Assembly: GCF_001270745.1 (NCBI RefSeq)
Contig: NZ_LFXL01000010.1
Span: forward strand, 372,001-436,000
Direction: 5' to 3'
Length of the DNA stretch: 64,000 nt
Source of the DNA: Jiangella muralis
GTDB lineage: Bacteria > Actinomycetota > Actinomycetes > Jiangellales > Jiangellaceae
Of this stretch, positions 42,886-46,592 are shown in pieces. The position numbers were made by a program, and so were the translations under genes. Position 1 is the stretch's first letter. Every line of letters starts with the position of its first letter. The notes under the pieces are model-generated. The model was not told the DNA's origin and searched no databases. It saw only the letters and a list, made by a program, of their open reading frames with translations.

Positions 42886-42889
<4 letters not shown>
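42338..42889 (+). CDS. DUF4916 family Nudix-like protein with degenerate Nudix box
   Basis: A 183-residue protein of the actinobacterial DUF4916 group related to Nudix hydrolases. The Nudix helix is recognisable ([22 protein letters not shown]), but the RExxEE metal ligands read R-H-x-x-K-D, so canonical pyrophosphohydrolase chemistry is doubtful. The ATG follows six bases after TAGAAC with no Shine-Dalgarno, so the message may be leaderless. Divergent from the glycan locus, convergent with lepA, whose stop it overlaps by four bases. Confidence 0.85.
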
Positions 42890-44739
<1,850 letters not shown>

Positions 44740-44860
44740 GCAGTTTCCTCGGGGCTTCGGGGTGGTCGTTCGGGACGCTCTCTGGGCGTTCTCGGCGTGG
44801 ACGGGGTGTCCCGCCCGCACCAGACATCATCCCATGGTCGGCCATGCGGGCGCGCCAGAA

Positions 44861-44880
44861 AAGTGATATCACTTAGCTAT
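44861..44880 (+). promoter_or_regulatory. Perfect 14-bp palindrome and promoter of the RHH-MazF module
   Basis: AAGTGATATCACTT (44861-44874) is a perfect palindrome; TAGCTA directly after it fits a -10 hexamer, about 40 bases before the first start. Ribbon-helix-helix proteins bind such short palindromes and commonly repress their own operon, and an RHH gene lies downstream. The site is thus a good autoregulatory operator. Confidence 0.7.
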
Positions 44881-44917
44881 CTGGTTGGCTGCCCGCTGCC
44901 GTGACACCTGGAGGACC

Positions 44918-45151
44918 ATGAGCGAGGCCCCCACCGCCCCACCCGGCGACCCCTCGCGCGGCCTAGTCGACAGCGACGCCGGGTACGGCAGCGACACTCC
45001 CGGCCACGGCCCCGGCGCCCGTCCCAGCGACGACCGCCCCAGCGACGACGGGAACGGCGGCGACGCTCCCGGCGTCGGCGACCGCGTCGGCCCGGCGGCA
45101 CCCGGCGCCGCCGACAGCGGCGGGGCAAGCCTCGACACCCGATCGCCGTGA
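44918..45151 (+). CDS. Small acidic, disordered protein before RHH gene
   Basis: A 77-residue open frame made almost only of Gly, Asp, Pro, Ser and Ala, with no hydrophobic core, so probably disordered if made. Support for translation: GGAGG six bases before the ATG, correct distance to a promoter, and a GTGA overlap with the RHH gene. It may serve mainly to couple translation. No family recognised. Confidence 0.55.
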   Translation: MSEAPTAPPGDPSRGLVDSDAGYGSDTPGHGPGARPSDDRPSDDGNGGDAPGVGDRVGPAAPGAADSGGASLDTRSP

Positions 45152-45432
45152 TCGAATCCGAGCCCGACGGCGCCCACCCGGTGCGGCGGCGCGAGCGGCA
45201 CGCCGTCCTGCTGCGCCTCGACCCGGCCGTCCACGAGGCGCTGACCCACTGGGCGCAGGACGAGTTCCGCAGCGTCAACGCGCAGGTCGAGCTGGTGCTG
45301 CGGAACGCGCTGCGGGCGGCCGGACGGGAGCCCAAGGACGCCGGCCCGCTCCCCCGCCGCGGCCGCCCGCCGTCGCCGCCGGCTGACGACCTGCCCCCGC
45401 CCGGCGAGCCGGACCGCACCGGCAACGGCTGA
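45148..45432 (+). CDS. Ribbon-helix-helix (Arc-like) DNA-binding protein
   Basis: A 94-residue protein. Residues 14-55 (RRERHAVLLRLDPAVHEALTHWAQDEFRSVNAQVELVLRNALRAAG) form a ribbon-helix-helix: one strand with LLRLD, then two helices, ending in the NAQVELVLR core typical of Arc/MetJ folds. The C-terminus is Pro-rich and basic. It overlaps the preceding small frame and stands before a PemK/MazF-like gene, the order of an antitoxin and toxin pair, though the gap of 94 bases and a separate promoter for the second gene weaken that reading. Confidence 0.8.
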   Translation: MIESEPDGAHPVRRRERHAVLLRLDPAVHEALTHWAQDEFRSVNAQVELVLRNALRAAGREPKDAGPLPRRGRPPSPPADDLPPPGEPDRTGNG

Positions 45433-45514
45433 GCGCCTCGGCTGCTGGGCCGGACGCGCGTTCGTCGGCCGCACGGTCGTCGGCGAACGGCGGGCCTGCG
45501 GCGGGCCGCGGCGC

Positions 45515-45529
45515 TACAGTGCCGACGTG
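45515..45529 (+). promoter_or_regulatory. Leaderless promoter -10 for the MazF-like gene
   Basis: TACAGT ends six bases before the GTG start, with no Shine-Dalgarno. This TANNNT-N6-start pattern marks leaderless transcripts in actinobacteria and gives the gene its own promoter. Confidence 0.55.
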
Positions 45530-46102
45530 GCCCGATTCCTCCGCGACCTCGTGCGCACGCTGCTGACCCCGCCGAAGCGACGGTCCGACCGCAACGACGA
45601 CCGCCCGGCCCGCCCGTCCACTCGTCCCGCCGATCGTCCGGCCCCACGCCGAGACCACCGGGACGGAGACGACCAGGGCGAGGAGTCGCCCGGCCAGTTC
45701 GGCCGGAACGCGACCACGGAGGCGCACTCCGTCGGCGAGGTCCACACGTCGTACAACCCGAGCACCGACGGCGACCCCGACCCCGGGGAGATCGTCTGGA
45801 CCTGGGTCCCGTACGAGGAGAACGACGGCCGCGGCAAGGACCGCCCCGTCCTCATCGTCGCGCGCGAGCCCGGCGGCACAGTGCTCGCCGTTCAGCTGAC
45901 CAGCAAGAACCACGACGGCGAGCGCGACTGGGTCGGCGTCGGCTCCGGCCGCTGGGACGGCGAGCACCGTCCGTCCTGGGTCGACATCAGCCGGGTCCTG
46001 CGCGTCCACCCCGACGGCATGCGGCGCGAGGCTGCGGCGCTCGGCCGCGACCAGTTCGACCCGGTGATCGGCGCGCTGGGCGACCGGTACGGGTGGAGCT
46101 GA
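45527..46102 (+). CDS. PemK/MazF-like protein with long charged N-terminus
   Basis: A 191-residue protein. The C-terminal 105 residues match the MazF/PemK fold: [29 protein letters not shown] (strand pair and the RPVLI motif), then [21 protein letters not shown] and [13 protein letters not shown]. The N-terminal 80 residues are basic and Arg/Asp/Pro-rich, perhaps disordered, and not part of classical MazF toxins. MazF enzymes cut single-stranded RNA at short motifs. Whether this one is a toxin or a housekeeping RNase-like domain is unknown; its seat between lepA and rpsT suggests a conserved chromosomal role. Confidence 0.82.
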
Positions 46103-46331: not shown

Positions 46332-46592
46332 GTGGCGAACATCAAGTCCCAGAAGAAGCGGATTCTCACCAACGAGAAGGCGCGGCTGCGCAACAAGGCC
46401 GTGAAGTCGTCGCTGAAGACGGCCATCCGCAGGTTCCACGAGGCCGCCGACGCCGGCGAGACCGAGAAGGCCACCGAGGCTGCTCGCGCCGCCAACCGGC
46501 AGCTCGACAAGGCCGCCTCCAAGGGCGTCATCCACAAGAACCAGGCGGCCAACCGCAAGTCCTCGATCTCGAAGCGGGCCGCCTCGATCTGA
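46332..46592 (+). CDS. rpsT: 30S ribosomal protein S20
   Basis: An 86-residue basic protein that binds 16S r[33 protein letters not shown], the Lys-rich middle and [19 protein letters not shown] are diagnostic. GTG start with AAAGG upstream. A strong terminator follows. Identification secure. Confidence 0.97.

Follow-up and report, generated by a model that had tools for sequence, protein, structure and literature searches.

According to the sections of PMC2701414 consulted, MazF toxins often have a ribbon-helix-helix (RHH) protein as their partner, solo toxins are also common and have been proposed to be regulated in trans, and Myxococcus xanthus carries a solitary MazF that likewise lies outside a normal toxin-antitoxin (TA) locus. 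For Mycobacterium tuberculosis, the sections of PMC6504116 consulted list Rv2405 as an orphan PemK_toxin of 189 amino acids (aa) and do not flag it as tested. Here we analysed a 64,000-nt stretch of Jiangella muralis DNA (assembly GCF_001270745.1, contig NZ_LFXL01000010.1, positions 372,001 to 436,000; hereafter the window), in which a palindrome, a 77-codon frame, an RHH gene and a gene for a protein of the PemK/MazF family (PF02452) stand between lepA and rpsT. The MazF-like protein shares Pfam family and fold with the PemK/MazF toxins, its closest structure being MazF-mt3, and differs from them in having no consistent adjacent antitoxin gene, its own leaderless-type promoter and a conserved segment before the MazF domain. 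A sequence-only reading of the window had joined palindrome, RHH gene and MazF-like gene in one module. Every element that it named was found where it had been placed (Table 1), and comparison with relatives makes it likely that the locus holds two independent neighbours: a reduced palindrome-SPFH-RHH operon and a solitary leaderless gene of MazF/PemK fold.

We compared 22 genomes of the family, 12 of them from the same genus (G000, of 7.27 Mb, is the window's own genome), and two wider samples comprising 393 genomes of the class for profile searches and 396 of the phylum for a 14-mer search. The MazF-like gene was present in all 12 genus genomes, which were the only positives in the family sample, and the RHH gene in eight of them; in G006, G007, G008 and G011 the MazF-like gene stands without RHH gene or palindrome. 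The sequence-only reading had itself stated that relatives keeping the MazF-like gene without the RHH gene would refute the module, and these four genomes are such relatives. MazF profile matches were found in 220 of the 393 class genomes, mostly once (two matches in 19 of the 220), and RHH relatives in 122 of the 393, leaving at least 98 of 220 genomes (220-122) with MazF and without this RHH, or at least 89 of 211 when nine best MazF matches weaker than 1e-9, possibly other MazF genes, are set aside. Some genomes, for example G192, have the RHH gene without MazF. In type II TA modules, whose genes are commonly co-transcribed and overlapping, the antitoxin gene is expected to stay with its toxin gene, and this RHH gene does not.

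Table 1. Position of the locus elements and their neighbours in the 64,000-nt window
Feature	Position	Strand	Remark
Palindrome AAGTGATATCACTT	44861-44874	none	Predicted operator of the SPFH-RHH operon
77-codon frame, SPFH/Band-7 gene remnant	44918-45151	+	Stop overlaps RHH start by 4 nt (GTGA)
RHH protein gene, 94 aa	45148-45432	+	Last gene of the SPFH-RHH operon; family alignment A2, RHH_5
Predicted -10 box (TACAGT) of the MazF-like gene	45515-45520	+	6 nt 5' of GTG
PemK/MazF-fold protein gene, 191 aa	45527-46102	+	PF02452, fold match
lepA (EF4)	42886-44820	-	Divergent neighbour; provisional start codon; named in the sequence-only reading
rpsT (S20)	46332-46592	+	Downstream neighbour

The usual companion of the RHH gene is instead an SPFH/Band-7 gene, which accompanies it in 22 of 22 RHH loci kept from outside the genus and in 19 of 20 loci of a second set that partly overlaps the first; in other genera there is mostly no MazF gene nearby. 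Read from these arrangements, palindrome, SPFH/Band-7 gene and RHH gene form a widespread actinobacterial operon, of which the window holds a reduced copy. We found no description of this operon in the open-licence literature searched, subscription journals lying outside the search; the core of the palindrome occurs once in PMC3460810.

The palindrome AAGTGATATCACTT was confirmed as a perfect 14-bp inverted repeat, the sole match in the window at up to two mismatches (none in 100 shuffles) and a single copy in the whole genome at up to one mismatch. It occurs exactly in seven of the 12 genus genomes, all seven RHH-positive, and the eighth RHH genome (G013) has the one-base variant AAGTGATATCACTG. 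Among the phylum genomes the exact 14-mer was present in seven of 396, own genome included; SPFH and RHH genes lie downstream of it in five of the other six, and neither does in G111. At 36 unique loci holding both SPFH and RHH genes (42 loci minus L209, which has no SPFH, and five duplicates), we took the best match to the 16-mer AAAGTGATATCACTTT within 600 nt upstream of SPFH, and found at most two mismatches in 31 loci and at most five in all 36 (none in 6, one in 11, two in 14, three in 2, four in 2 and five in 1), against 7-9 mismatches in downstream control stretches. A sigma-70 consensus scan of the region found nothing. Most likely, the palindrome is the binding site through which the RHH protein controls the operon, which would make this operon a second regulatory unit of the locus, with a sharply defined operator pointing to its own predicted regulator.

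The 77-codon frame is best interpreted as the remnant of an SPFH gene that has kept its start motif and tail and lost its core. A complete SPFH/Band-7 gene lies between lepA and the RHH gene in three of the eight RHH-positive genus genomes (G005, 343 aa; G012, 334 aa; G015, 330 aa), and the G005 protein at the place of the frame matches Band_7 (PF01145) with E=2.2e-25, whereas the window copy has lost the SPFH core. The SPFH gene of G013 is shortened internally to 253 aa, and short frames of 77, 35, 111 and 69 aa occupy its position in G000, G009, G010 and G014, respectively (complete genes are at L028, L034 and L037; reduced ones at window 44918-45151, L029, L030 and L031). The beginning of the SPFH gene (MTET.., MSEAPTAPP in the window) survives in the short frames, downstream of a common Shine-Dalgarno-like CTGGAGGA, the ATG of the window frame being preceded by CTGGAGGACC, and G009 and G014 also retain the SPFH end, GSLYT-stop. 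The former stop codon has changed in the window, where the frame runs a few codons further and ends in a TGA that shares bases with the GTG starting the RHH gene. The sequence-only reading, which called the frame disordered, was right that an open frame is present; the view of it as a protein in its own right is superseded by the SPFH gene at the same position in relatives. The original reading frame is kept in four of the five shortened copies (not in G010), which is suggestive only (probability by chance about 0.045 at 1/3 each). On a lepA tree the reduced copies do not cluster, as G014 groups with the intact G005 (0.999), G009 with G013 (0.926) and G000 with G006/G007 (0.971), so SPFH has probably been reduced several times. 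Palindrome and RHH gene have thus probably been kept in the genus while SPFH was repeatedly shortened or deleted.

The RHH core is, judged by its codons, under purifying selection, with dN of 0.008-0.039 against dS of 0.105-0.582 (28 pairs), and 0.008-0.023 against 0.151-0.403 among the four most reduced genomes (6 pairs). Because the core is constrained and the palindrome is exact in seven of the eight RHH genomes, RHH function seems to be independent of SPFH here. The identity of the 94-aa protein, described in the sequence-only reading as Arc-like RHH, is likely and not proven: the window protein alone falls under the Pfam cut-offs (FitA-like_RHH, E=0.02; RHH_5, E=0.043), and RHH_5 matches 12 of 12 family members at E<=0.1 (best 4.1e-4). 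The monomer model was poor (pLDDT 66), and searches of solved structures by sequence, single and profile, yielded nothing usable for this protein. In G015 the RHH frame (L037:4785-5327) carries, ahead of the RHH core, a long run of short Gly/Pro/Asp/Arg-rich repeats that stay in frame.

The MazF-like gene appears to have a promoter of its own. The TACAGT-N6-GTG arrangement that the sequence-only reading took for a leaderless -10 box is exact in the window, and TAnnnT-N6/7-GTG precedes the gene in all 12 genus genomes (TACAGT in 9, TAGGGT in 3), with no Shine-Dalgarno-like site between box and GTG in any of the 12. At 117 further loci, which include Jiangella ureilytica, counted also among the genus genomes, TAnnnT stands 6-8 nt before an in-frame ATG or GTG in 113, where about 1.5 were expected; it was found at each of 95 loci, mostly from Streptomyces (1.33 expected from shuffles), and in 18 of 22 selected diverse loci (0.18 expected), or in 109 of the 113 unique genes. 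The same scan scored 131 of 144 MazF loci (a redundant set) as leaderless, against 0/54 for SPFH, 1/66 for RHH, 0/33 for lepA, 1/35 for rpsT and 0/18 for holA, and a scan with different bounds gave 3 of 51 long open reading frames (ORFs) in the window. The MazF message thus looks leaderless in nearly all actinobacterial relatives examined, and on the sequences compared the leaderless observation is right and reaches wider than the sequence-only reading knew; its statement that this is not the usual one-promoter antitoxin-toxin pair also holds. In M. tuberculosis, 26% of genes with a primary transcription start site are leaderless, as are 32 of 37 TA pairs, according to the sections of PMC3898074 consulted. 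The leaderless state being common there, it is its class-wide retention in one family that stands out.

On the reading as two units, the RHH protein would bind the palindrome and regulate the reduced SPFH-RHH operon, from which the SPFH core has been deleted; since start, ribosome-binding site and frame end survive, translation of the RHH gene probably continues through coupling, and the 77-codon frame may serve as its leader. The MazF gene would be transcribed separately, from its own promoter and as a leaderless message, and would encode an RNase of low abundance that is either weak or narrow in its targets and has no neighbouring protein partner; vertical descent and tolerated MazF expression would go with this. 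Several points weigh against the reading. The RHH gene of G570 (L209:7160-7339) has neither SPFH nor a clear palindrome, and the profile support for RHH identity is weak. The stop of the leader frame lies -8 to +5 nt from an in-frame RHH start in eight of eight genomes (-4 in the window), a distance measured each time to the in-frame start nearest the stop, a choice that in itself favours coupling. Four of the 22 diverse loci (L187, L194, L196 and L197) have no -10 box, L196 having a Shine-Dalgarno-like site; start codons and boxes were read from sequence, and the scan takes any in-frame start. The RHH and MazF-like genes lie on one strand and 34-294 nt apart in the seven genus genomes that have both on one contig (94 nt in the window), so read-through from a promoter at the palindrome is possible. 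Finally, none of 79 mostly Streptomyces contig loci (the best-80 set described below minus Jiangella ureilytica) has lepA or rpsT in the flanking DNA examined, and the translation neighbourhood is therefore not general.

The window protein matches PF02452 with 42.2 bits (cut-off 23.1, E 1e-10), as do 38 of 38 aligned relatives at E<=0.01. Its model (pLDDT 83.8) is closest to MazF-mt3 (Z 12.5, 2.1 A over 102 residues), in agreement with Foldseek, and the 50 structure matches listed (Z 10.4-12.5) are annotated as MazF, Kid, MoxT, YdcE, mRNA interferase, endoribonuclease or toxin. Searching the sequences of solved chains with the protein gave none at E<=1 (single sequence) or E<=0.01 (profile), and NCBIfam and PADLOC gave no match. 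It consists of an N-terminal helix and charged linker (residues ~1-50, numbered with the second codon as 1), a conserved segment (51-86) and the MazF domain (~82-190). The sequence-only reading had described a PemK/MazF-like protein with an 80-residue charged extension; family and fold are borne out, and the extension divides into a variable linker and a conserved segment, because only the first 50 or so residues vary and model with low confidence (short helix 3-11), while 51-86 is confident and contains invariants. These are Y75, P77, D80, G81, D84, G86 and E87 in the segment region, followed further on by K103-P106, L123, S125, W142-D143 and R165-E167. The linker is absent or short in streptomycete forms of 148-155 aa. 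At the candidate catalytic positions all 38 relatives have R105 and either T (20) or S (18) at position 124; these may correspond to the known MazF catalytic residues, an assignment made by motif and not by residue-by-residue alignment. The protein is most likely an endoribonuclease of MazF fold.

Conservation of the candidate catalytic residues argues, within the limits of that assumed mapping, against a non-nuclease RNA- or ribosome-binding factor, for example a translation helper beside LepA. Such a factor is the better-placed of the alternatives, though we think it unlikely: a single match in most positive genomes, adjacency to lepA/rpsT in several families, and the family-specific invariants (the DG..DPGE segment, WD and RRE) would all suit it. 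Somewhat less probable still is a true toxin kept in check by a small RNA or by an antitoxin whose gene lies elsewhere, in line with the trans regulation proposed for solo toxins; no candidate turned up, no search in trans having been made, and the MazF neighbours at 12 loci are for the most part large and vary from lineage to lineage, as surveyed with a crude ORF heuristic that missed MazF itself at L060, L189 and L194. Ten of these neighbours, from six loci, were scanned and matched an amidase, a PARG-like protein, LysR, ammonium transporters (two), glycosyl hydrolase 15, a sigma factor, a tRNA synthetase and a SpoU methylase, with one unmatched. That RHH and MazF act as antitoxin and toxin of one module controlled from the palindrome, MazF being made from a leaderless message as well, is very improbable in spite of their adjacency in seven genus genomes and the frequency of RHH partners among MazF toxins, since distribution across genus and class speaks against a single RHH-MazF module and the RHH gene goes with SPFH.

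The MazF family is already known, and a likely orthologue of the present protein already stands listed as an orphan toxin, as the mycobacterial orthologue is probably Rv2405, judged by layout and size and not by sequence comparison. Four lepA-linked relatives in f4, of 185-204 aa, show a matching divergent layout; we take Rv2404c to be lepA, and f4/g9 to be mycobacteria. We found no description of a lepA-linked leaderless MazF in the open-licence literature searched, subscription journals again lying outside the search. A link between E. coli MazF and ribosomes with a preference for leaderless messages has been described (Vesper 2011, cited in PMC4681348). The sections of PMC4681348 consulted also report that no processing was detected at the corresponding 16S site of Streptomyces coelicolor, a result that speaks against simply carrying over the E. 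coli model. Much more speculative, and in our judgement improbable, is a class-wide partnerless MazF RNase, beside lepA/rpsT in several families and found in probable mycobacteria and Streptomyces, whose leaderless message would be under selection because it can still be translated once Shine-Dalgarno initiation is disabled by the enzyme or by stress, giving a self-sustaining switch to leaderless translation. The sequence-only reading had suggested that the leaderless message may escape cutting by its own enzyme. For avoidance of cleavage words in MazF messages, synonymous shuffles covering 85 of 124 relatives, after removal of near-duplicates, gave 159 ACA against 175 expected, 32 TTCCT against 27 and 52 CCTCC against 86, with no control gene set and with many GC-rich words depleted more. 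The pattern of a mostly single-copy MazF gene with no steady partner, a class-wide leaderless layout and, in several families, a place at the lepA-rpsT locus is better matched by a cellular function than by an addiction module.

The placement of the MazF-like gene between lepA and rpsT, noted in the sequence-only reading, is kept in 11 of the 12 genus genomes; in G013 a contig end falls between lepA and MazF, dividing the locus over two contigs. rpsT lies downstream in all 12, and lepA is 91-97% identical in the other 11 genus genomes, adjoining the MazF-like gene except in G013. Beyond the genus, at least 569 MazF relatives were confirmed in GTDB contigs, the best 80 being kept. lepA and/or rpsT/holA lie near MazF at nine of 19 diverse loci, in five other families (f2, f4, f6, f113 and f114), and within the DNA examined lepA and rpsT were seen neither at the other ten nor at 18 loci with 1.5-kb flanks. 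In G607 (L199/L220), from another family, the order is lepA..MazF-palindrome-SPFH-RHH-rpsT-holA, and the order of the two units is therefore not fixed where both share the interval.

In eight genus genomes the SPFH-RHH unit, or what remains of it, occupies the gap between lepA and MazF. The gap is nearly empty in G006 and G007, where no more than ~170 and ~210 bp, respectively, separate the aligned ends of lepA and MazF, which leaves little room for an upstream antitoxin gene. The gap of G008 contains a C39-like peptidase gene (L039:3566-4909; Pfam E=6.5e-27), and that of G011 a similar open frame, probably also a C39-like peptidase. A 114-aa frame (L197:6225-6569, G426) lies 47 nt downstream of one MazF relative. 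The window's own genome also holds, at L040:1247-1809 (G000:C16), a 108-aa PF02452 MazF gene overlapping a 78-aa gene that by eye is RHH-like; this canonical pair resembles the window locus in combining an RHH-like protein with PF02452, and differs from it in its overlapping genes and shorter toxin, where the window has a 94-nt gap and 191 aa.
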